DNA of 64,000 nt from contig MU657234.1 in NCBI GenBank assembly GCA_026770575.1, positions 37,844 to 101,843 on the forward strand. The letters run 5' to 3'. Shown piece after piece: positions 19,513 through 50,683 of this stretch. Position 1 is the first letter of the stretch. Every line of letters starts with the position of its first letter. The notes under the pieces were generated by a model that saw only the letters and a list, made by a program, of their open reading frames with translations, made no database searches and had not been told where the DNA came from. This stretch comes from Pelagophyceae sp. CCMP2097. Its lineage: Eukaryota > Sar > Pelagophyceae. Made by a program: the position numbers and the translations under genes.

Positions 19513-22500
19513 ATGCGCGATGCACGTCTCAAGCGCGCGACGCCTCGTAGGGAGCACCTCGTCGCGAGCGCGGGCTCGGGCGACGTCGTCCGGCTCCGGG
19601 CCGCGATCAAGGACGCCCTCGCCCAGGTGTCGCACTCGAAGAAGGGGGTGCCCCCGCTCGACGTCCGCAGCGACACGAGCGGATACGGTGCGTTTTTCAC
19701 AAGAGCCTCGTCGAGACCCTTGCGCCGGCCGGCCCTCTAGCGGATTCCTGCAGCCCGAAGAGACGCGTGCAATAGGTGACACGGCTCTGGTCTCCGCGTG
19801 CCGCCGCGACCACACGGAGTGCGCGCGCGAGCTCCTCGCCCAGGGCGCCGACCCGAACGCGTGCTCTCGCGACGGCTCGACGCCGCTCTGCGCCGCCTCG
19901 GTGCGTGCTCCTCGTCGAAAGGACGCGCCTCTTCCCTCGCGGCAGAGAGCACGCGTTGCCGGGTCGTCTCCGCTCCCGACGAGTTTCGAGGTGCCTCGTG
20001 TGTCCTTCCGCGACACGCGCAAAACCAGGCGGGAGGCTACGTGAAGACGGTGGAGCTGCTGCTCATGTCGGGCGCGTCGGTCGCGCTGGGCTCGTCGGTG
20101 GTGCACTCGAGCTGCGCGCTCTTCCTCGTCGACGAGAACCCGGCGATGCGGCAGCGGGGAATGACGGGCTCGCCGCTGGTGCACGCGCTGGCGGCCGACT
20201 CGGTGCCCGTCATCGAGCTGCTGCTGCGCTGGGGCGCGGTGCCCGTGGCGGGCAACTGCGCCGAATTCGGCAAGGGCCGGTTCTATGAGATGCTCGCGTT
20301 CTGCGAGAAGACGATGGACAAGAGCCGGAGCGGCATGGTCGACGAGGACGTGGTCTACCCGCAGCAGCAGTCGCAGCAGCAGAAGAAGGCGCAGAACGAC
20401 GAAAACTCGCTGCCGCGCGTCCGCTTCGAGGTCCTCGGGGCCCTCGGCGCCGTCGTCGCGGCCCCGCGGTCCGGCGTCATGCGGTCGCTGGCCAAGTTCG
20501 AGGTGACCGTCACGCGCGACTTTGAGCGTAAGCGGCGCTACGCGCTCCTCTGGCGCTGCGAGCTGCTGCTCTTCCAGGCGGGCCTCACCGACGTCCTTGA
20601 CACCAGGTCGGGCCTCAACCTCGACCAACTCGAGGACGACGACTCGGAAAGCTGGCTCAACCAGATGCCCGTGCCGACGGTGCCGTCGGGCAAGGGCGTC
20701 GTGCTTCCGGGCATCCACACGGCGATCAAGGCTTGCGAGAAGTGCATCGTGAACTGCCGCATCCTCGCCGGCGAGGCGCCGGCGAGCGAGCTCAAGGCCA
20801 AGTCGCTGGCCGCGGAGTTGAACCGGCTCGACGCGGTCAGGTTCTTTTCGGACCTTAAGGGGCTCACGTACCGCGACCTTGTCGTCTACTACGAGTGCAT
20901 GGCGCTGGAGCGGCTCAAGAACCTCGTCGAGAAGATGGAGGGCGTCCTCAATGGGACCACCAGGTTCAAGGGCAGCAAGGTGGCCAACGGCGTGGTGCGC
21001 GACGAAATGCTGAAGCTGTCGCATTTTTCGATGCGGCTCATCCTCGACGATTGCGACCACGCCGCCAACAACGAGTGGCTCAAGTCGCTGCGCGGGCGCA
21101 TGGCCGTCGCCGGCGGGCGGCTCTCGGAGAAGGTCGAGGCGGCGCAGCGCGACGCGCTGGCCCACGGCGGCTACCTGAAGACGCTGCTGGGCCTCACCGG
21201 CGAGCCCGACGAGGCGCTCGCGCAGCAGCTCGAGCTGACCCTGCTCGCGGGCGGCAAGATCCGCACCATGGAGAGCACCGTCGCGCAGCAACTCCGGCTC
21301 GCCAAGGAGCTCGACAGGGCTGAGGAGGCCCAGGCGGTCAAGGCGCCGCCGCCGCCGACGCCGTTGGCCAAGGGTTTTCTCAACAAAAAGGAAAAGGCGG
21401 AGAAGTACGCGGACGTGCCCGACGTGCCTTCGGCGTCGTCGGAGGCGCAAAAGGCGGCCGAGGCCGCGCGCGCCGCGGAGCGCGCCGCGGAGGCGGCGCG
21501 CGCCGAAGAGGCGGCGGCGCGTTCCCGCCAGGCGGACGAGGCGTCGGCGGCGTCGGAGGCGGTGCGCAAGGAGAAGCTGCAAAAGGAGCGCGACGTGGAG
21601 AAGAAGCGGCAGAAGGAGGTGAAGAAGAAGCGCGACGAGGAGGCGGCCAAGGCGCGCAAGCTCGCAGAGTCGTGGGTCAAGGCGGAGACGGCGTTTCGCG
21701 ACCTGGAGAAGCGGCCCATCGCAGAGCAGCGCAACGGCCGCGAGTGGGACCGCATCCGCAGCGACCTCGGCGTCGAGGCGACGGAGTCGGACAAAGAAGA
21801 CGACGACGACGGCGTGGACGTGTCGGCCGCGGAACTGCGCGTCGACGACGCCGACGCCCGGCTCCCGCGCGAGGACTGGGAGATGCACCCGGACCTCCTC
21901 ATCACGGGCCGCGTCCTCAAGTGGCTCGAGAAGCACGGCGCGAACGTCCGGGAGACGAAGGCGCACGGCGCGCTCGCGGCGGCGATGCTCGAGCGGCTCT
22001 CGGCCATTTCGCGGGGCGACGCCGTGTCGCGGCGGCGGTCGACGGAGTTCGACCTGGGCCTCGGCGGCGAGGAGCTGTGGTCGTCGCGCCTGGGCGCGTT
22101 CGTCGTGCTCTGGTCGCGGCACGACGTCGACAAGAAGAGCCAGCCGCTCGTCTGGCGCGTCGAAAAGGTCGGGTCGCGCGAGGTCGCCGCGCTGGAGATG
22201 ATCGCCCACTCGCTGCGGCGGCGCGCGGACCACGTCGCGCTGGAGATCGCGGCGGACTCGTCGTCGAACGGCGACGACGCCGTCTGGCTCGCGCCGGGGA
22301 CGAACCGGCCGCTGCTGCTGCACGTCCTCGCGGCCAACGCCATGTCCGGCGGCGACGTGGGCGCCGAGCTGGACCGCATCCAGTGGCGGCCACCGTTCCG
22401 GCTGACGACGCGAGAGAGCGAGGCGCTCGGCCACCGCGGCGCGCCGGCGATGGTCCTCGGGCGGTCGGGCACGGGCAAGACGCTCATTATGGCCGAGCGC

Positions 22501-25500
22501 ATCCGGCGCGACCGCGAGTCCGAGCCCGGGTCGCGCATCCTCTTCGTCGCGCGGTCGTACCGCCTCGCGGACCACGTCGCCCGGGAGATTTGCCAGAGCG
22601 AGGCGCACCAGCAGGTCGCGCGGGCCGTCAAGCCGAAGCAGGCCGACATCGCCGCGCTCCTCGGGGGCGACGCCCCGGCGGGCAAGGGCAAGAAGAACGG
22701 CGGACCGCGGGCCGCGGTCGACCGGTCCGAGTACGTGCTGACGAACGAGGAGCTGCTGTCGGTCCTCGAGCACAAGGTCGCGGGCGAGTCGGAGGACTGG
22801 GAGCCGGCGGCGCGCTGCGACCTGCCCAAGTTCTCCGACGACTTTTGGCTCCGCGGCGGCGGCGAGGCGCGAACGCAGGACCGCAAGGGCCCGAAGAAGG
22901 AGACGCAGCCGCTGCTGCCCAACATTTGCTGGGAGCAGATCCAGTCGCACATCAAGGGGTCGACGAAAGCGGCGCTGCTGGGCCGGCCGCTGAGCCGCGA
23001 GGAGTACCTCTCCTCCATCGGCGCGCGGCGCGCGGGCAACCTGACGGCGCCCGAGCGCGAGACGGTCTACAGCGTCTACGAGTGCTACAACAGCTGGCTT
23101 CTCGACTCCATGCTCTGGGACGACTCGGACCGCGAGGTGAAGCTCGTGCAGCGCATCCTCGCCGACGGCTGGGTCCCGTCGGCAGACGGCGTCGTGCGGG
23201 CGCCGGCGGACTTTTGCTACTGCGACGAGGTGCAGGACATGACGCAGGCGACGCTGGTGCTACTGCTGCTCTGCGCGGGCAACCGGCCGGACCGCCTCTT
23301 CGTCGCGGGCGACACGGCGCAGGCCATCCACGAGGGCGTCTCCTTCCGCTTCAACGACCTGCGCCAGGCCGTGTACGACCTGCACATTGAGATTGCGGGC
23401 CGGTCCGCGTTCCACAAGGACGACGGGCCCGGGAGCGAGGCCAAGTCGAAGCTTGCGGCGTCGCGGCACGTGACGCTAACGCGCAACTACCGGTCGCACG
23501 CGGGCATCCTCCGGCTGGCCAACGCGACGCTTGACCTGCTCAAGCACTCTTTCCGCGACGCTTTGGACGTCATCGAGCACGACGACGGCTTCGCCGCGGG
23601 GCCGCGGCCGCTCGTCGCGACGAGCGAGCGCGCGGTGGCAATCCTCGAGCGCGACCGCCACGCGCACGCGCTGCTGCGGTCGGAGCCGCTGCGCGCGGCG
23701 CGCGCGCGGTCCGCGCTCGACGCCGAGGCGACCAAGGAGGCGCACGCGTCGCACGCGAAGCGGCTGGACAAGGGCCGCGGCGAGCACGAGCTCTTCGAGC
23801 GGCTCATCGTCGAGCGGAACCGCATCTACACCGACGCGGCGCTGACGGAGGTCATCGAAGCCGCCGTCGACGCCGATTTTGCGGCGACGCGCAAACGCCG
23901 CGAGGCGCGGCGCCGCGCCGCCGAGGCGCGGGACTTTAGCGCGCGCCTGGCCCGGGCGCAGGCGCTGCTTGTCAACGCGAACAACCGGACGTGCGACGCG
24001 CTGCGCCTGACGGTGCACGTCGCGCGGCGCTGCGAGCTGATCCGCGCCGCCGTTTCGGCGCACGACGCCGACGTTGCGCAGGCGGCGGGCGGCACGGCGC
24101 CGCCGCCGCCGCCGCCGTCGGACGCGGACCAGGCGCGGTGGGCCGTGCACGCGGCCATGGTGCAGCTCGAGGACATGAAGCTCTTCTTCAAGCGCGTGTC
24201 GCACATCGACGGCGCGGCGGTGGCGCACTACGTCGGGCTCTGCCGCGCGGAAGAGGTGGAGATCGGCGACATCCCCGTCCTGCGCTGGCCCGAGCCCGGC
24301 GACAAGGACCAGTCCAACGACTGGATCGACATTGGCTTTGGCGAGGTGGACAAGGACGTGATCAACGAGCTCAAGGAAGTCTACTTCAACGTGACCAATG
24401 ACGTGCGGCCCCTCGATTTGCCGGGCGGTTTAGCGCCCGTCGTGGCGCCGCTCGGGTCGTACTACACGCGCCTCGAGCTGGCGATGCCGCGCGTCGACAA
24501 GCGCGCGTTCAACCACGTCAAGCTCGACGTCCCCGCGCCCTTTTCCGGCGACGACGGTGACGACGGCTACAAGACCGACGGCAGGCACGTCGACGACGAC
24601 GCGCGCGAACAGCGCGTCGCCGAGGCGCGCCAGGCCAAGATCGCCGAGCTGCTGAAGCGCGAGGGCGCCAACGCGGACAAGTTCCACGAGCACCACGCGC
24701 AAAAGCGCAAGCAGCAGAAGCAGAAGAAGAAGAAAAACGCGGACCAGGCCGACGACTCACCGGGGGCCGCCGCCGCCGCCGGCGACCTCAACAAGGACCT
24801 CGAGGCCATCCACGCGCACGCCAAGAAGGACCTCGACGCCGCCGCGTACGAGACGTATGACATCTGCAACAACCACGAGATCGAGTCGCGCACCTTCAGC
24901 ATCGCAGAGTACAAGGGCCTCGAGAACGAGACGATTGCGCTCGTTGACTTTTTCGGTGAGCGCCCTTCTGCCGCGGGCCTTTGCGGCCCAGAAAGACGCG
25001 CCCGGAAAGACGCGCCATCCGCGTAGGCGGCGCGACGCCCGAGGTGGCCGCCGGGTGGAAGGCGCTCTTCGCGGCGGCGAACTCGGCCGACGAGACGACG
25101 CGCAGGTCCAAGTTTGAAGAGGCGGGCAAGTGCCGCACGCTCGAGCGCGACATCAAGCTGCTCTACACGGCGCTGACGCGGTCGCGGTCGCGCCTCATCG
25201 TCATCGAGCAGAACCCGGGCGCCGGCGCGGCACGCGGCGCCATTGCGTGGTTCCTCCGGCAGGACGAGCGCCGCGGCCACACGCTCGCGGAAAAGTACGC
25301 GCGCGACGCTGACGACGACGGCAGCAGCAAGGGCGGCGTGCTCCTCGTGCCCGACGAGTGGCGGTCGCGCGGCTGCCTCCGCGCGCGCACCGCCGAGAAC
25401 GCGGTGACGGATCAGGACCGCAAGAACAACCTCGAGTCGGCCGCGCGCGCCTTCGCCAGCGCCGACGACAAGATCCTCGCCGACCGCTGCGCCGCCCAGA

Positions 25501-39878: not shown

Positions 39879-42800
39879 TCAGCCCCTCCTTTCTCGCCTA
39901 AAATCCACCCTGAGCTTCGGCTTCGGCTTCTTTGGGGCGTCGCGGGCCGTCCTCGCTGCCTTTGGGACGTAGTTGAGCGGCTTGCGGAGGCCGTTTTGCT
40001 TCTTTCGGGGTTTGGGCTTCCATCTGCCCAGATGGCGCGCCCGTTGAAAGTCGCAGAGCTCGATGTACCTCCGCTTCGCCTCTGCCATGCGCGCGCCGTC
40101 GTCGTCCGCGAGGCGTATGATGAGGTCCGTGCGGTCGCCGTCGAGAGGGAGCTGGCGCTCGGCCACGAGCGCGGCGAGGCTCGACAAAGGCATGTTCTGC
40201 TGCAGACTGCGCGGCCGCAGCGCAATCTTCTCGCGGAGGAAGGCCTCGCGGTCCGCCCGCTGCCGCAGCGCGGCCCAGTCGCCGTGGGAGACGCGGACGA
40301 CGTCCCAGCCGGCGGCGTCGAGGAGCCGCGTTCGGAACTCTGAAGGGCCGTCGAGCCGGAGGCTGGCCACGCCCGCGACGGCGGCGACGCCGACGGCCGC
40401 GGCGGTGCCCCCGCCGGCGAAGCCGCGGACGTGCGCCCCGGCGCCGTCGTACTCGACTGCGATCATTTCAGACGGTAGAGCGTTGATCCGCAAACCCTCA
40501 GGGGTGACGAAGTCGGCCTCGTACGAGCCGAGCTTCGCCAACGAGGCCGCCAGATCGATCCGCGCCTGCGCGTCCTCTGGCGAGGGAGCCAGGTACGCTT
40601 CTCGAAGCTCTGCGGAGTGCGTTTTGAGGAGTCGAGCCAGGGCGTGGTCCGGCGAAGTGAGATGGAGGTGCATCGACACCTCGTGCAATTTCGCCATGCC
40701 CGCGGGCCCGCAGTCGAGAAAAGAGGCGGCCTCCGCGTCCCGTGAAACGGTGTCGAGGCGCCGAGCGGCGTCGTCGAAGAGCTCTTGAGCTTCAAAGCCC
40801 GAGACCGCGAAAGCCCAGAGCATCGTCGCGAGTTCGAGAGGCGTAAACGTCGCCATCTTCTTCGCCGCCTCGGCAGACACGGCTTCGAAGAGCGCCGGGG
40901 CCTCGTGACCCCCCTTTGCATACGCCCAAATCGTCTCGGTAAGCGCCCGCGTCGAAAACGTCGCCAAGCGCTCCGCGTCGGAAATTTCGTGGGCGGCCGC
41001 CTCGAACAGCGACGGCGCGTCGAAGCCCGCCGTGGCGTACGCCCAGAGGACGTCTGCCAACTGCTGCGGTTTATATGACGTGATGTCGTCGGCCACCAAG
41101 TTGGCCGCCCTCTGGAACAGTAGAGTCGCCGGGACCGCCCCGAAGAGCGCGCGCCCGGTGTACCGCTCGGCGTCGACCTCGGCTGCGGCGGCGTAGGCGC
41201 GCAGGGTCTTCGCAAGGTCGGGTGGGTCGAACAAGTCTCCCTGTAGGATCCTCTTCGACGCTTCAGAGGCGACGTTTTTGTACAGCCGCGGCGCGGAGAA
41301 GCCAGCCTCGGCAAAGGCCCAGATCGTATTCCCGAGGTCGGTCGGGGTGAAATTCGTCTTCTTCTTTGCCATCTCGAGCGCGATTGCTTCGTAAAGTGCG
41401 AACGCGGATACGCCAGCCTTTGAGTACGCCCACGCTGTCCGCGCCAGCGCCTGGGCGTCGAGCGCCGGAACGGCGCCCACCGCCGCAAACGCGACGGCGT
41501 CGAAAAGCAGCCTGGCGTTGTCTGACAAAGCCTCTTCCGAAAAGGCCCCCGTGGAAGAATACGCCCAGATCGTGTCTGCGAGCGCCCGCGGCGGAAATTT
41601 CACAATCTTCTGCCGCGCCTCCTTCGCGACCGCTTCGAAGAGCTGCGGCGCCTCGAAGCCCGCTGTGGCGTAGGCCCAGACCACGTCTGCCAAAGCTTCT
41701 TCGTCGAACGTCTCAATCTTCTGCCGCGCCTCCAAGGAAACGGCCTCGAAGAGATACGGCGCCTCGACGCCCGCCGTAGCGTAGGCCCAGACGATCTTCG
41801 ACAGCGCCCTTGAGCCAAACGCTGCGATGTTGTTCAAAGCTTCTGCGGCGACGGCCTCGAACAGCGCCGGCGCATGGAAATCCATCTTGGCGTAGGCCCA
41901 AATCGTGTCCGCCAAGACCCGCGGTTCAAATTCGCCCAGCCGCCTCGACGCTTCGGCCAAAACGGCTTCGAACAGCACCGGCGCTTCGACGCCCGCCGAT
42001 GCAAAGGCCCAGACGGTGATTGCGAGGCTCTGCGTCGAAAACGTGGCAATCTTCTTCGACGAAGCGGTCGCCAAATCTTCAAAGAGCGCCCGGCTCTCGG
42101 GCGCTCCGATGTGCGCAAACGCCCACGCCGTGTCCGCCAGCGCCTGCGAGTCGAAGGTGGACATCCTTTCGGACGTCGCCTCTGCGACCTTTTCGAACAA
42201 CGGCCCCGATAAAACGCCCGCCGTCGCAAAGGCCCACGCCGTCTCCGCGAGCTCGTTGGAGGTGAACGACGCCATCTTCTTCACGGACTCGGCCGCAATC
42301 GCTTCAAATAGAGCCGGCGCGTCGACGCCCGCCGCCGCAAAGGCCCACGCCGTGCTGGAAAGGTCCTCCGCTTCAAACGCCGCCATCTTTCCCGTCGCGT
42401 CGACGGCGATGGCCTCGAACAGAGACGCGTCCGCGTCGAAGAGCGCCGCCGCCTCGCCGATCTTCGACACTCCCCAGCACGCGTTCGCCAGCGCCCTCGG
42501 CCGCCACAGATGCGAGTACCGCTCGATGCTCACCGCACACCGGCCCGCCAGTCTTCGCAGCAGCGCCCTCGACGCCTCGTCGAACGTGCCGCAGACGCCG
42601 AGGCGGTGCAGCGCCGTCGCGAGGTTGGCGTGGCTGAACGTCTTCCCGTCCTTCTCGAACAAGGCCAAGATGCTAGAGGCGTCGGGAAGCGCGCAGAGCT
42701 GCGTCTCCAGCGCCATCGCCGCGGCGACGGTCCCGGCGAGGTGCTCCAAAGGATCCGGAGGAGGCACAGCCGGCTTGCGCGGCCGCACTTTCCGAAGAAC

Positions 42801-45602
42801 CTTGCCCTCTTGCAGAGGCGGCGCCTTCCAGGGCGCGGCGGCCTCGACGTTTTCGGCTGGCTGTAGCGCGTGCACCGCGTCGTCTGCGGTGCGCGCGTAC
42901 TCTACGCCGATGGTTCGGCGGCCGACGAGCGTCCCGTGCATGACGTGCAGGACCCTCGCCGCGTCAAAGGCGTTTACTGTGACAAAGGCGTAGCCCTTTG
43001 AGAAGCCGGACTCTGCGTCGATGGGGAGGCGGACGTTTGTGACCGTGCCGACTGCAGAAAAGGACTTGAGGACGTCGTTTGCCTCCAAACGACGCGGCAA
43101 ATGGCTCACAAACAACTCCACGCCCTTCGACCCGCGCTTCGCCCGCGCCCGGTCCGCGTGAGACGCCGCGTCGAAGGCGTCGAAGAGCGTCGGGAACTTG
43201 TTCTTCATGCTCGAAAACGCCCATTCCGCGTTTGTGAGGCTCTTTTGAGAAAACGTCGACATCTGCTCGACGATTTCAAACGCGGCCGCCTCGAAGAGCC
43301 GCGGAAACGAGACCTTTGCCATGGAGAAGGCCCAGACAATGTTCGACAGCTCGAGCGAGTTGAACGTGGAAATCTTCCGGGACGCCTCCGCCCCGATGGC
43401 GTCGAACAGCTCCGGCGCCTCGACGCCTGCCGCCGCAAAGGCCCAGGCCGTGTTGGCGAGGTTTTGGGAGTTAAACTGCTGCATCTTCGCCGGCGCGTCT
43501 CGAGAGACGGCTCGGAAGAGGGCGCGGCACCGTATGCCTGCCCGGGAAAACGCCCAAACCGTGTTCGCCAGCGACTGCGCATCAAACCCGGCAATTCTCT
43601 TCTGCGCTTCCGTGGCCACGGCCTGGAACAGCGCCGGCTTGCGCAGGCCCGCCGTCGCAAAAGCCCAGACGAGGTTTGAGAGACACTGCGAATCGAAACT
43701 AGGGACCTTCTTTCGCGCCTCCAACGCCACCGCGCCGAACAAAGACGCCGCCTCCACTTTTAAAGTCGCAAAGGCCCACGCCGTGTTGGCGAGGTTCTGG
43801 GCGTTGAACGATGCGATGTTGTTCGCAGACTCGGCGGCGATTGCTTGGAACAGCTCCGGCGCCTCGAAACCCGCCTTGGCAAAGGCCCACGCCGTGTTCG
43901 CCAGCGCCTGCGCGTCAAACGTCTCCATCTTCCTCTCCGCTTCTAGACCGACGGCTTCGAAGAGCGCCGGTGCGGATATGCCCATTGTAGAGTAGGCCCA
44001 GGCCGTGATGGCGAGCTCTTGTGCGTCGAACGACGACATCTTCGCCACCGACTCCAGAGCCACCGCTTCAAATAGAGCCGGCGTCAGGACGCCCGCCTTT
44101 GCGAAAGCCCAGGCGGTGTTTGATAGAGACTGCGGGGTGAAAGATACAATCTTATTTTTCGATTCGACGGCGACGGCGTCGTACAGAGCCAGCGCTTGAC
44201 ACCCCGCCGTCGAAAACGCCCAAACCGTATTTGACAGGTTCTGCGGCGTAAACTTCCCCATCTTCCTGCGCGCCTCCAAAGCGACCGCCCGGAATAAGGC
44301 CTCGGATGAAACGGCCTCGTCTGCCGCCTTTGCGGACGCCCCCGCCTTTGCAAAGGCCCAAACCGTGTTCGAAAGCTCTTGCGCATTGAACCGAGCAATG
44401 TGCTTCGAGGCTTCCACTGAAATGGCCTCGAAGAGCAACGGGGCCTCGACTCCCATTCGAGAATAAGCCCACGCCGTGTTGGCCAGGTCCTGCGCATTGA
44501 ACGTCGCAATCTTCGTCGGCGCCGCCTCGGCGACCGCTTCGAAAAGAGCAGGCGCATGGCACCTCATCGTCGCGTACGCCCACACCGTGTTCGACATGGC
44601 CTGCGAGTTGAACAGATTGATCCGGAGCCGCGTTTCAGCAGCGACGGCCTCAAACAACAACGGCGCTTCAAAGCCCGCCGTCGCAAAGGCCCACGCCGTG
44701 TTCGCCAGAGCCTGCGGCGTAAATGTCTCAATCTTCTTCGGTGCCTCTAGAGCGATGGCCTTGAAGAGTGACGGCGCTTGGAAGTTCGCCGTCGCAAACG
44801 CCCACGCAGTGTTCGAAAGTTCCTGGGCTTTAAACGTCTCCATCTGGATCAAAGCCGCGGCCGAGACGGCCTCGAAGAGCACCGCCGCGTCGTCGGTGCG
44901 GCCCCCGAGCTTTGCGGCGCCCCAGACGACGTTGGCGAGCTCGCGCGGCAGCCAGCCGTCCGCCGTGGCGACGCTCGCCGCAGCCTGCCGGACCAGCTGC
45001 CCCAGGACCGGCTGCGGACCCGCGTCGAGAGTGTGGCAGAGGGCGCCGCAGCGGTGCAGCGCCGTCGCGACGTTGACGTTTGTAAAGCGCGAGCCCTCGG
45101 CCAGGAAGAACGCCAAGATGTCCGCCGCAGTCTCGCTTCTGGCGAGGCGGTCGTTGCGCGCCACAGCGGCAACGTCACAGAGGCGGCGCGGCAGCGTCGA
45201 CGGCGGCACGGGCCGCTGCGGCGCAGGGCGTGGCGTCTCGTCTAAAGGCGGCGCTTCGTCGCACGTTTCAGCCTCGCACGCTTTCGCGAGTCTTACAGAG
45301 ATGCGCCCGCCTCGCACTTCTGCGCCGTCGAGAGCGGCCCAGGCGTTTTCGGCGTCTTGGATCGGGACGGTGACGAGCGCAAAGCCTCGGGATTTGCCGG
45401 AAATGGCGTCGAGAGGGAGCGAGACTTGCGAGACTGTGCAGATTCGTTCAAACGCGCCGCACACATCGCCCAGTGTCGCCGCGCGCGGCAGGTCCAGCAC
45501 GACGAGCTGCGCCGTTTCCGCGCGCTTCGAAGCGGCGCGCGCGGCCGGCGAGGCGAGCGCCCTGCGCGGCCGCAGCGACTTTATCGGAATTAGCTGCTTC
45601 AT
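39879..45602 (-). CDS. Giant organellar-type RNA-binding protein: 2x[RRM + WAFA repeats] + RAP
   Basis: Single exon of 1907 residues from ATG 45602, the only ATG in the first 70 codons of the frame. RRM1 spans about residues 32-110 (LVVLDLPRAATLGD ... KSRGFALVTV). A linker with ATALHRCG leads to about 16 repeats of 36-40 residues with core LANTAWAFATAGFEAP (about 220-810). RRM2 lies at about 828-905 (ELFVSHLPRRLEAND ... FSKGYAFVTV). A second linker with ATALHRLG leads to about 15 repeats (about 1034-1615). A RAP domain follows (EMIAVEYDGAGAHVRGF, WDVVRVSHGDWAALR; about 1711-1785), then a SAP-like stretch and a basic tail. RAP and helical-repeat proteins act on organellar RNA. The N-terminus is Arg/Ala-rich, compatible with organelle import; function is inference. 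Confidence 0.82.
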   Translation of the reverse strand: MKQLIPIKSLRPRRALASPAARAASKRAETAQLVVLDLPRAATLGDVCGAFERICTVSQVSLPLDAISGKSRGFALVTVPIQDAENAWAALDGAEVRGGRISVRLAKACEAETCDEAPPLDETPRPAPQRPVPPSTLPRRLCDVAAVARNDRLARSETAADILAFFLAEGSRFTNVNVATALHRCGALCHTLDAGPQPVLGQLVRQAAASVATADGWLPRELANVVWGAAKLGGRTDDAAVLFEAVSAAALIQMETFKAQELSNTAWAFATANFQAPSLFKAIALEAPKKIETFTPQALANTAWAFATAGFEAPLLFEAVAAETRLRINLFNSQAMSNTVWAYATMRCHAPALFEAVAEAAPTKIATFNAQDLANTAWAYSRMGVEAPLLFEAISVEASKHIARFNAQELSNTVWAFAKAGASAKAADEAVSSEALFRAVALEARRKMGKFTPQNLSNTVWAFSTAGCQALALYDAVAVESKNKIVSFTPQSLSNTAWAFAKAGVLTPALFEAVALESVAKMSSFDAQELAITAWAYSTMGISAPALFEAVGLEAERKMETFDAQALANTAWAFAKAGFEAPELFQAIAAESANNIASFNAQNLANTAWAFATLKVEAASLFGAVALEARKKVPSFDSQCLSNLVWAFATAGLRKPALFQAVATEAQKRIAGFDAQSLANTVWAFSRAGIRCRALFRAVSRDAPAKMQQFNSQNLANTAWAFAAAGVEAPELFDAIGAEASRKISTFNSLELSNIVWAFSMAKVSFPRLFEAAAFEIVEQMSTFSQKSLTNAEWAFSSMKNKFPTLFDAFDAASHADRARAKRGSKGVELFVSHLPRRLEANDVLKSFSAVGTVTNVRLPIDAESGFSKGYAFVTVNAFDAARVLHVMHGTLVGRRTIGVEYARTADDAVHALQPAENVEAAAPWKAPPLQEGKVLRKVRPRKPAVPPPDPLEHLAGTVAAAMALETQLCALPDASSILALFEKDGKTFSHANLATALHRLGVCGTFDEASRALLRRLAGRCAVSIERYSHLWRPRALANACWGVSKIGEAAALFDADASLFEAIAVDATGKMAAFEAEDLSSTAWAFAAAGVDAPALFEAIAAESVKKMASFTSNELAETAWAFATAGVLSGPLFEKVAEATSERMSTFDSQALADTAWAFAHIGAPESRALFEDLATASSKKIATFSTQSLAITVWAFASAGVEAPVLFEAVLAEASRRLGEFEPRVLADTIWAYAKMDFHAPALFEAVAAEALNNIAAFGSRALSKIVWAYATAGVEAPYLFEAVSLEARQKIETFDEEALADVVWAYATAGFEAPQLFEAVAKEARQKIVKFPPRALADTIWAYSSTGAFSEEALSDNARLLFDAVAFAAVGAVPALDAQALARTAWAYSKAGVSAFALYEAIALEMAKKKTNFTPTDLGNTIWAFAEAGFSAPRLYKNVASEASKRILQGDLFDPPDLAKTLRAYAAAAEVDAERYTGRALFGAVPATLLFQRAANLVADDITSYKPQQLADVLWAYATAGFDAPSLFEAAAHEISDAERLATFSTRALTETIWAYAKGGHEAPALFEAVSAEAAKKMATFTPLELATMLWAFAVSGFEAQELFDDAARRLDTVSRDAEAASFLDCGPAGMAKLHEVSMHLHLTSPDHALARLLKTHSAELREAYLAPSPEDAQARIDLAASLAKLGSYEADFVTPEGLRINALPSEMIAVEYDGAGAHVRGFAGGGTAAAVGVAAVAGVASLRLDGPSEFRTRLLDAAGWDVVRVSHGDWAALRQRADREAFLREKIALRPRSLQQNMPLSSLAALVAERQLPLDGDRTDLIIRLADDDGARMAEAKRRYIELCDFQRARHLGRWKPKPRKKQNGLRKPLNYVPKAARTARDAPKKPKPKLRVDFRRERRG

Positions 45603-45655
45603 CGGCCGACCGACGCCCACCGTCCGGAGCGGCCGCCGGCGGCCCGGAGGCGGCT

Positions 45656-45735
45656 CGGCGACGCCGTGGTGCGGCAGAACGGCTCGCGGCGGCGGCTTGG
45701 CGACGCCGTGGTGCGGCAGAACGGCTCGCGGCGGC
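45656..45735. repeat. 42-bp tandem repeat, two copies
   Basis: GGCGACGCCGTGGTGCGGCA and the following bases to GGCTCGCGGCGG occur twice, 42 bp apart, just upstream of the RAP-protein ATG (45602). They lie in its promoter or 5' leader. Confidence 0.8.
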
Positions 45736-45918
45736 GCTCCGGCGAAGAACAAGGCGCCTTCCCCTTGGGTACTTCCCGAAACTTTTAAACAAATCTTGGC
45801 CCTACCCACGCTCGCGTCGAGCTGGGGCCCTTGTTAGATCTAAAGTCCCACGGGGCAGTTGAGATGTCTCCTCGTAGGAACGTCAACTCGGGCGTCACGC
45901 ACGACGGGAGAGTACTCC

Positions 45919-47281: not shown

Positions 47282-48479
47282 ATGTCGCATGAGTACGGCA
47301 TGATGAAGCCCGAGGTGCTCGAGGCGTGGCTGCTCGACCTGCTCGACTCGGTCGCCGAGGAGGGCCGCTTCCCGGCCATTTCGATTGCGGCGCGGGGTGA
47401 GGCCTGCGAGGACGCTTTGGACGGCGACGACGAGCCGGACGGGCCGGCGCGGCGCGCGCCCAAGAGGAAGCAGATGACGCCCGAGGGCGCGCGGTCCTAC
47501 GCCGGCCTCATCTGCGCCGCATCGTTCTGCCACCGCCTGCTCTCAGAGGGGAAGACGGCGACGCAGCGCGAGCTCTACTACATGCACAAAGGCGGCGCCT
47601 TCAGCCCGTGGTCGACGCAGGCCGAATGCAACGAGTCCATCAAAGACGTTTCGCAGTGGTGCGCCCCGACGGCGGCCGCGCGGGGACGAGGCCTCTTCAA
47701 CGACGCCTCGCCGCAGCTTCTCGACGGACCGCGCCGCGCTCGGCATCACCACGTCCGCGCGGGGATGTACTGTCCTCGTGCTGCCCTCTTGAGTGGGAGC
47801 GCTCAGCGACGCGACGCTGAACGTAGGCATCGCCGGGTGCGTGCGCCTCCGGCGGCCGGGCGGCGAGTGGCTGGACCTGCTGCGCGAGGGCGTGCAGGCT
47901 ATTGACCACGACTGGATCACGGTGCGGCGCGAGATCGAGTCGGACGCGCGGTGCGTCGTCGTCGTGGAGAAGGACGGCATCTTCCGGCGCCTCGTCGACG
48001 ACGGTTATTTTGCGCGGCGAAAGTGCATCCTCGTCACGGGCTGCGGCGTGCCCGACGTGGCGACGCGCGCCTGCGTCGCGCAACTGCGCGCGGCGCTGAG
48101 GGTGCCCGTCTACGGCCTCGTCGACTGGAACCCGTACGGCGCGGGCATCCTCGCCGTCTTCAAACGCGGGTCGCGCTTCGGCGTCACCGCGGAGCAGCAG
48201 TACGCCGTCGACGTGCGCTGGCTCGGCCTGCGCTCCTCGCAGGTCGAGGCCGCCCAACTCCCCGACTCGTGCATGCAGCCGCTCAACGTCCACGACGAGC
48301 GCCGCGCGCGGGGCCTCCTCGCCGACACCGACATCCCCGAAACCTGGCGCGGCGAGGTCGAGCGCCAGCTCGAGGTCGGCGCCAAGTGCGAGCTCGAGGC
48401 GCTCTGCACGACGGGCGGCGGCTTCTCCAACGTCGCCGACTTTGTCGAGAGCGCCATCTCGCGCGGCGACTACCTATGA
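47282..48479 (+). CDS. SPO11: Meiotic recombination protein SPO11 (Topo VIA-like)
   Basis: Exons 47282-47658, 47717-47766 and 47827-48479 join in phase to about 359 residues. The catalytic tyrosine is in ATQRELYYMHKGGAF. The spliced middle gives SIKDVSQCFSTDRAALG and ITTSARG/CIAGCVRL. The Toprim part follows: CVVVVEKDGIFRRLVDDGYF (metal-binding Glu), ILVTGCGVPDVATRACV and VYGLVDWNPYGAGIL. SPO11 makes the double-strand breaks that start meiotic recombination, working with a TopoVIB-like partner not seen here. All key residues are intact. The start was set at the MSHEYG Met; an in-frame ATG at 47105 would overlap the rhomboid start and was rejected. Confidence 0.88.
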
Positions 48480-48769: not shown

Positions 48770-50683
48770 TCAGGCGATGAGATCCCCTCCCTACGCGGCG
48801 GACGGGTTAGGGGTCGAAGCGCGCGGGCGGGGCTCTCCCCCCGTGTCTCGATCGTTTGCGGGTCCGTTCGACGCACCATGTTCGTGTTAAACAGCGCGGA
48901 GACGGACGTGCCGCCGTGGATGCCGCGGATGGCGGCCTCGATGAGCTTGCCGACGGAGAGCTGGCGGATCTTGCGCGTGCGCTCCGTGATGGCGGGGTCG
49001 AGGGGCACCGTGTTGGCCACGACCACCTCGTCGAGGACGCACGCCTCGATGCGGTCCGCTGCGGGGCCGGAGAAGAGGCCGTGCGTCGCAAAGGCAAAAA
49101 CGCGGCGCGCGCCGAAGCTAGAGGCGAGAAAAGGTGAGAAGCCCAGCCGACTCCCCGAAGCGTGTGGCGAAGCGCCCGGTCCATCCGACTTTTTTGGCGG
49201 GCCCCGCCCCCCCCCCCGGAGCGTGGCACTCACGCGCGGAGCTCGTTTGCGGCGGCGGTGAGCGTGCCCGCCGTGTCGATCATGTCGTCGACGATGATGC
49301 AGTCGGAGCCCTCGACGCTCCCGACGAGGTGCATCGAGCCGACGACGCCCGGGGCGCTGCGCTGCTTGAGGATGACGGCGAGGGAGATCTCTGGCGGCTC
49401 GGGGAGGCGCGTGAAGCCCTCCATGAAGAGCTTAGCGCGCGCGACGCCTCCCGCGTCGGGCGAGACGATGACGGGCTTGATGAGGTCCTTCATATTGAAA
49501 TACGTCACGGCAATCGGCGCGGCGAAGAGGTTGTCGACGGGCGTGCGCGGGCCGAAGAAGCCCTGGATCTGCGCCGAGTGGAGGTCGACGCAAACGACGC
49601 GGTCGACGCCCATGGCCTCCATCATGCGCGCCACGTCCGCGGCCGAGATGGGCACGCGCGACCGGTCCTTGCGGTCCTGCCGCGCGTAGCCGTAGTACGG
49701 CACCACCGCCGTCACGCTCGCCGCCGACGCGCGCCGCGCCGCCGAGATGAGGAGCAAGAGCTCGATGAGGTGGTCGTTCACGGGCGGCGACGTCGGCTGC
49801 AAAATGTACACGTTGCACCCGCGCACAGAGTCGCAGAGCTGGATGTTCACCTCGCCGTCGTTGAAGCGCCGCACGTTCGCCGGCGACAGCGGCACGCCGA
49901 GGCGCGCCGCCACCTCCTCGGCCAGCGGCCGGTTCGCGCTCCCGGCGATGAGCTTAATGTCAATGTGGCCCAGCTCCTCGTTGATGCGCGACCGCGCGAG
50001 CTTGAACTTCTCCAGCACGTTTTCAAGCCTAAGGGCGAGCGTGCGCACATAGGGCCCCGCCGCCGTCGAAGCGCCCCGCCACGCACCGGCACGACTTGAA
50101 GACCTCGTTGGTGAGCCGGGCCTCAAAGTCGGGCGACTTGGCGTCTGGCGTGTGGCGCAAGCCCATGAACTTGTCGTACTTTTTCATAATCTTCTCAAAG
50201 CCCTGAGTGTTGAGCCAGACAAACGCCTGCAGCTGGCCGATGCGCGCGTGCAGCCGCACCATTGACTCGTTGAGCGCCGCCGAGGAGAGGGGCGCGCCGT
50301 CGCCGCCGCCGGTGAGCGACGTCCGCGGCGACGCCACGGGGATGCTCTTCTCCTTGCTCTCCACGCGCGTGGCCTCGAGCGACTCGAGCTCGCACTCAAA
50401 CTCGTTCACCTTCTCCAGGTAGAAGCGGTTCACCTTCTCCAGCTCCGACTCCAGCAGCATCCACAGCTCGTCCACCTCCGCCTCGCGCCTAATGCCCCAC
50501 CGTCGAGAAGGCCGGCCCGAGCGAGCCCGCGTCCGACGCCCCCCAGGGAGACGCCGTCCGGCACTGGGCCTGGTCCTCGAGCTTGGTCAGGTCCTTGATG
50601 AGGTGCTTCAGAGTGTCGTAGGCGATGTAGCCGTGCTCCCACTCTGCGACGACATTCGTCTTGAGGTCCTGCCCAAACTTCAT
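48770..50683 (-). CDS. SPX domain fused to ribose-phosphate pyrophosphokinase
   Basis: Five GT-AG exons (50565-50683, 50087-50488, 49234-50028, 48877-49117, 48770-48790) keep phase throughout and give 525 residues. Residues 1-174 are an SPX domain: MKFGQDLKTNVVAEWEHGYI, NRFYLEKVNEFECELESLEA and the basic helix GFEKIMKKYDKFMG that binds inositol pyrophosphates in known SPX proteins. Residues 175-525 are PRPP synthetase: IKLIAGSANRPLAEEVAARL, RRFNDGEVNIQLCDSVRG, VVPYYGYARQDRK, VSPDAGGVARA, the PRPP loop DCIIVDDMIDTAGTL and ATHGLFSGPA. The enzyme makes PRPP from ribose-5-phosphate and ATP for nucleotide, His and Trp synthesis. The SPX part implies control by phosphate status (inference). The last exon is seven codons long and less certain. 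Confidence 0.85.

Follow-up and report, generated by a model that had tools for sequence, protein, structure and literature searches.

SPX domains are eukaryotic readers of phosphate status, with known outputs in transport, polyphosphate synthesis, phosphate recycling and transcription, and the proteins known to carry them act as transporters, polyphosphate polymerases, phosphodiesterases or regulators of transcription and kinases. RNA and DNA synthesis is a large phosphorus demand, and nucleotide synthesis has been described as a major phosphate sink (PMC7381174). In yeast all detectable inositol pyrophosphates are reported to drop upon phosphate starvation, and 1,5-IP8 has been proposed as the signal by which SPX proteins sense abundant phosphate (PMC10511240). 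Class I phosphoribosyl pyrophosphate (PRPP) synthetases are reported to require phosphate as an activator (PMC9232217). Mammalian PAP39 and PAP41, together with PRPS paralogs, are described as assembling into and tuning the PRPS complex, one of them with an N-terminal extension (PMC12238573); they too are synthetase homologs, but without SPX. Here we describe a gene that joins the two families, located in a 64,000-nucleotide window of the alga Pelagophyceae sp. CCMP2097 (GenBank assembly GCA_026770575.1, contig MU657234.1, positions 37,844 to 101,843). Judged from its sequence, it probably encodes a PRPP synthetase of the class I type whose N-terminal SPX domain, as a receptor of inositol pyrophosphates, ties PRPP output to phosphate status.

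The gene occupies positions 50683-48770 of the window, on the minus strand, and comprises five exons with a spliced product of 525 residues (Table 1). An earlier reading of the letters alone (hereafter the original prediction) had placed SPX and PRPP synthetase on a single polypeptide; re-splicing confirmed its exon boundaries, its splice donor and acceptor, the Arg codon shared between two exons and the length of 525 residues. The four introns, 336 nt in total, all run GT..AG, and the Arg174 codon is split by intron 2 (CG from the end of exon 2, G from exon 3). A search of approximately 5.8 billion proteins with residues 1-200 identified a public protein, P0001 (source jgi, four contigs), that is identical across all 525 residues. 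The longest P0001 contig is 1,827 b, against a genomic start-to-stop span of 1,914 b, and thus has no room for all of the introns; most simply, the P0001 sequence derives from spliced RNA, the source type of the contigs not being stated. For intron 1 many other in-frame GT/AG or GC/AG pairs were available, and only the 76-nt version was singled out by the P0001 sequence.

The two halves of the protein fall on separate exons, as would suit an SPX gene and an adjacent PRPP synthetase gene falsely joined by a predicted intron. This explanation is close to refuted by the identical 525-residue protein, whose contigs do not exceed 1,827 b. Separate transcripts for the two halves, named in the original prediction as its refutation, were not seen, although the comparison included no raw RNA-seq reads. 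Moreover, exon 3 still encodes the final SPX helix, and the SPX fold match extends to residue 189-191, which argues against two genes, and single-chain relatives bear transcriptome names (P0034, P0055, P0058). The exon 2/3 junction is the same in the nearest relatives (P0002, FKSCRLENVLEKFK; P0003, FKSERLDACLEKFK), and more distant independent relatives have alignable junctions. The predicted single polypeptide is thus supported: an identical protein is known from contigs too short for the unspliced gene, other species share the architecture, and the SPX fold continues across the splice junction.

A domain search of the product, proposed as a check on the original prediction, matched both SPX and a full PRPP synthetase above cut-offs. 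The SPX domain covers residues 1 to ~190 (PF03105, 83.7 bits against a cut-off of 27.8), and a complete class-I-like synthetase covers residues ~197-519 (Pribosyltran_N, PF13793, 162.9 bits; Pribosyl_synth, PF14572, 95.3; Pribosyltran, 58.8; all above curated cut-offs). The predicted structure contains the SPX fold, with an N-terminal helical hairpin followed by a long helical bundle. The N-terminal position, the fold and the ligand residues are common to the fusion and the SPX-regulated VTC complex, XPR1/SLC53A1, GDE1, PHO81, PHO90 and plant SPX1-4; unlike the outputs of those proteins, that of the fusion is the central metabolic enzyme PRPP synthetase.

Residue conservation was assessed in an alignment of 39 rows, made up of 38 of the 80 fusion clusters described below and the N-truncated P0018. 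The SPX ligand residues N133, K139, K142, K143 and K146 are invariant (39/39), Y19 and Y22 are kept in all 37 rows long enough to include them, and K26 is kept in 36 of these 37. Counterparts of Vtc4 K26, K132, K133 and K136, which we take to be ligand residues, are all present in the CCMP2097 protein. Its Y19, Y22, N133 and K139 align with Vtc4 Y19, Y22, N123 and K129, and substitution of the latter in Vtc3 and Vtc4 together has been reported to alter the response of VTC to 5-IP7 (PMC10167327). This pattern suggests that the SPX domain can bind inositol pyrophosphates.

The synthetase shares its fold, active-site residues and phosphate/ADP allosteric residues with E. coli Prs, B. subtilis Prs and human PRPS1/2, and is 40-47% identical to the 50 Foldseek matches listed. 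It differs from class I enzymes in its ~190-residue N-terminal SPX and in the loss of most filament-contact residues, and from E. coli Prs in a two-residue insert before the PVDN motif. The active-site reference set comprised F35, N/D37, E39, H130, K194, R196 and the ribose 5-phosphate motif DDMIDTAGT, with K194 and R196 of the catalytic loop taken as members by assumption; the CCMP2097 protein carries F229, D231, E233, H324, K395, R397 and D421-T429 at these positions. The PAP proteins are presumably marked by missing or disrupted residues in the catalytic loop and active site. Here the catalytic residues are intact, which points to an enzyme rather than a PAP. All residues of allosteric site 1 are also present, as defined by the human PRPS2 phosphate/ADP site (S47, R49, K100, R104, Q135, D143, S308, S310 and F313; PMC10227994). 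Across the alignment R49, K100, R104, Q135, D143, S308 and F313 are kept in 39/39 rows and S310 in 38/39, while position 47 is S in 13 rows and N, as in E. coli, in 26. Residue conservation thus bears out the earlier assignment to the class I type with a phosphate allosteric site.

In E. coli and human synthetases, filament contacts are reported to involve E298, R302, N305 and E307 (PMC10227994, PMC9232217); we did not count them as a requirement for class I membership. Positions E298, R301, R302, N305 and E307 correspond to A500, R503, G504, G507 and T509 in the CCMP2097 protein, so that only R301 is kept. The replacement of the four reported contacts by A, G, G and T is compatible with a role for SPX in controlling hexamer or filament formation, in place of the filament contacts of the E. 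coli and human enzymes. Neither E298 nor R302 is kept in any of 20 ochrophyte-type fusions, and haptophyte-type fusions keep them in 7 and 1 of 24, respectively; furthermore, an SPX-SPX interaction is described as regulating VTC (PMC10167327). We nevertheless consider such control of assembly quite improbable, because nine unassigned fusions keep both residues (9/9) and unfused relatives vary as well (E298 in 7/14, R302 in 9/14). Whether loss of the contacts tracks fusion was tested directly, and given these two groups it does not do so cleanly.

According to the reading that we favour, inositol pyrophosphates (InsP8/InsP7) would be high when cytosolic phosphate is ample and would bind the SPX lysine cluster, and ligand binding would alter the state of the synthetase such that PRPP and nucleotide synthesis track phosphate status. 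By analogy with VTC, our guess at the direction is that bound SPX would be permissive and empty SPX restraining, in which case nucleotide synthesis would slow early as phosphate falls. Phosphate would be read twice, through SPX and through the enzyme's own allosteric site, because class I synthetases also respond to phosphate itself as an activator.

An alternative is that SPX serves as a docking module which, through ligand-dependent contacts, recruits the synthetase to partner proteins or a membrane while catalysis is unchanged; at polyphosphate-storing acidocalcisomes, for example, PRPP could be made where phosphate is released. Inositol pyrophosphates (PP-InsPs) are reported to promote binding between plant SPX domains and PHR transcription factors (PMC7810988), the 66-Mb assembly has a VTC-domain match at one place, and the activity of human PRPS1 is reported to be unaffected by PP-InsPs (PMC13237142). 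In the structure model, however, SPX runs almost directly into the first synthetase strand (helix to residue 193, strand from residue 198), and this near-direct join would favour mechanical coupling over docking, which we regard as unlikely.

Several observations weigh against the reading that we favour. Human PRPS1, which has no SPX, is reported to be retained by a 5-InsP7-analogue resin, and neither inositol hexakisphosphate (InsP6) nor PP-InsPs changed its activity in vitro (PMC13237142). The structure model has a predicted template modelling score (pTM) of 0.59, which does not fix how the two domains are placed relative to each other. The catalytic loop is not uniformly kept across the 39 fusion rows (Lys in 29, Arg in 32), the losses falling in part of the haptophyte type, and unfused relatives with altered active sites lie inside the fusion clade, so that some members do without SPX. 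The ligand-making route is only partly in sight: the exon-by-exon search of the assembly gave no match to the IP6K family (PF03770), leaving the route to 5-InsP7 unclear, and PPIP5K N-domain matches at two places (G000:C78:117295-117558 and G000:C66:35777-36040). Finally, the three assembly matches to PF03105 all fell within this gene, and no SPX was found near the VTC locus (L010) by motif and tblastn within 3,681 bases; we do not conclude from this that other SPX genes are absent from the alga.

The same assembly search, made in six frames and exon by exon with few candidates scored, gave no second PRPP synthetase, although a strongly split copy could escape it and the completeness of the assembly is not given. 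PF13793 and PF14572 each matched at one place, both in this gene, and searches with P0001 and with the unfused P0094 likewise matched only this gene. If assembly and search are complete, all PRPP in this alga would come from the fusion enzyme.

Both domains recur together in other algae. SPX and Pribosyltran_N were found in 17 of the 19 matches to residues 1-200, and both domains in 33 of 34 matches of a second protein search, with P0019 common to the two. In a third search SPX was present in 64 of the best 120 of 7,999 matches, 31 of the 64 being new. At least 80 protein clusters carry both an SPX and a PRPP synthetase domain, a lower bound since the second and third searches scored 8,000 candidates each and the third contributed its best 120 matches. 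The original prediction had suggested looking for the same fusion in other stramenopiles, and it occurs there in the pelagophyte Aureococcus anophagefferens (P0005, P0006, P0053) and, by taxonomy look-up, in the dictyochophytes Octactis speculum (P0055) and Rhizochromulina marina (P0058, by taxid). It also occurs in the haptophyte Prymnesium parvum (P0034, by taxid; same look-up) and in Chrysochromulina (P0039), Diacronema lutheri (P0081) and Pavlovales sp. CCMP2436 (P0083), which we take to be haptophytes. No diatom, oomycete or plant name appeared among the best 120 of the 7,999 matches, few of these rows being named. The CCMP2097 synthetase is 86% identical to P0053, the most complete Aureococcus sequence, and groups with P0003, a near relative of P0053.

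A quick tree of 75 rows was followed by a careful synthetase tree of 43 rows, from which P0099 (unfused, long branch) and 31 rows thinned by hand had been removed. The latter holds 30 fusions, four unfused pelagophyte-type relatives, eight other unfused rows and E. coli; the labels ochrophyte-type, haptophyte-type and unassigned were given by sequence likeness to a few named rows. The fusions and the four unfused relatives form one group (98/94) and the eight other unfused rows a separate one (99/97). Within the former, haptophyte-type fusions form a group (99/97) that adjoins the pelagophyte-/dictyochophyte-type with modest support (87/84), and two further fusion groups branch deeper. The simplest reading of these sequences is one fusion event with later loss of SPX in the four unfused relatives. 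In these four, residues of the catalytic loop and active site have been lost too; one of the four is from the pelagophyte Chrysophaeum taylorii. Either descent or transfer may connect the haptophyte and ochrophyte fusions. A nesting of haptophytes within ochrophytes, with transfer, was entertained and dropped, as it had rested on the ochrophyte-type labels of P0061, P0062, P0065 and P0070. In a tree of 27 SPX rows, the haptophyte-type rows again fall together (99/95); as it contains no outside SPX proteins, this tree cannot test a single SPX capture.

The unfused relatives nested among fusions show that SPX is dispensable, which bears on the view that it is a remnant that regulates nothing, or holds InsP6 only as a structural cofactor. 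Nothing direct speaks for this view. The ligand residues are invariant or nearly so although the SPX part overall evolves fast (median end branch 0.33 in the 27-row SPX tree versus 0.17 in the 43-row synthetase tree), and we consider this view very improbable.

Returning to SPX as a regulator of the synthetase, the findings can be combined into a wider proposal that is possible but, taken as a whole, doubtful. The fusion would be the sole PRPP source in this alga, with SPX occupancy gating PRPP and throttling RNA and DNA synthesis at one enzyme; the inositol-pyrophosphate pathway would act in this way in several marine algal lineages; and a fusion of single origin, reaching ochrophytes and haptophytes by descent or transfer, would have replaced filament-based regulation. 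Through a covalent link between SPX and PRPP synthetase, nucleotide, histidine, tryptophan and NAD synthesis would stand under the same phosphate signal, with a bearing on the phosphorus economy of bloom-forming algae such as Aureococcus and Prymnesium. The fusion also offers a one-protein system for testing inositol-pyrophosphate control of PRPP synthesis, a question raised by the retention of human PRPS1 on an InsP7-analogue resin at unchanged activity (PMC13237142).

No description of an SPX-PRPP synthetase was found in the open-licence literature, which agrees, within such papers, with the statement in the original prediction that none was known. The word SPX does not occur in the main text of two studies of PRPS evolution (PMC13252144, PMC12238573). 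SPX transcripts under phosphate stress have been reported for Aureococcus (citing earlier work) and two haptophytes in a paper whose main text has neither 'pyrophosphokinase' nor 'PRPP' (PMC5513979), and SPX gene counts in phytoplankton in another that has neither 'pyrophosphokinase' nor 'fusion' (PMC8233357). Fusion proteins are already in public databases but are named generically; the one from Octactis, for instance, is called 'ribose-phosphate diphosphokinase'. Thus, the sequences were known and their meaning apparently was not; the protein is a new architecture built from two known families.

Further observations concern individual relatives. Seven unfused proteins nested among pelagophyte-type fusions (P0089, P0092, P0093, P0094 from Chrysophaeum taylorii, P0096, P0097 and P0106) have altered catalytic-loop, K99/K100-loop and G227 positions, and by their sequences look like algal counterparts of the mammalian PRPS-associated proteins; a search of the CCMP2097 assembly with P0094 found no such relative. 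Ten haptophyte-type fusions (P0030, P0032, P0034, P0036, P0038, P0039, P0041, P0042, P0044 and P0048) have a rewritten catalytic loop in which Lys is replaced by Pro, Gln or Arg and, in seven, Arg by Thr or Ser, some with inserts. A deep, separate and unassigned fusion group consists of P0064, P0066-P0069, P0071, P0075, P0078 and P0082, joined in the 75-row tree by P0088, which had been labelled haptophyte-type. P0015 begins like the ochrophyte-type P0014 and has a haptophyte-like C-domain, and is probably a chimera of metagenome assembly. An alignment scan of viral contigs, with patterns that came from the synthetase, gave 13 loci (L016-L028) that match the synthetase part only (query residues within 197-516) at 37-45% identity to the algal enzyme, with SPX matched in 0/13. 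Three other open frames of the window are listed with the parts of the gene in Table 1.

Table 1. Parts of the SPX-PRPP synthetase gene and other open frames, in positions of the window
Feature	Position	Strand	Description
Exon 1	50565..50683	-	SPX start, residues 1-40 (MKFG...), including Y19, Y22, K26; identical in P0001
Intron 1	50489..50564	-	76 nt, GTGCCG..CATTAG; choice matching the P0001 sequence
Exon 2	50087..50488	-	SPX core helices, including lysine surface cluster K139, K142, K143, K146
Intron 2	50029..50086	-	58 nt, GTGCGT..CCCTTAG; inside SPX fold; supported by P0001
Exon 3	49234..50028	-	Final SPX helix (residues 174-193 of the model) and a short linker, followed by the N-domain and a large part of the C-domain of PRPP synthetase
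Intron 3	49118..49233	-	116 nt, GTGAGT..CCTCTAG; supported by P0001
Exon 4	48877..49117	-	End of PRPP synthetase C-domain; allosteric-site residues S510, S512, F515
Intron 4	48791..48876	-	86 nt, GTGCGT..CCGCGTAG; supported by P0001, whose end GGDLIA equals the prediction
Exon 5	48770..48790	-	Final residues GGDLIA and stop
Neighbouring open frame	47793..48479	+	Spo11/topoisomerase VI-A Toprim domain (PF21180, 129 bits)
Long open frame	39882..45833	-	Combines RRM, FAST kinase-like and RAP domains
Long open frame	19780..25023	+	UvrD-type helicase match
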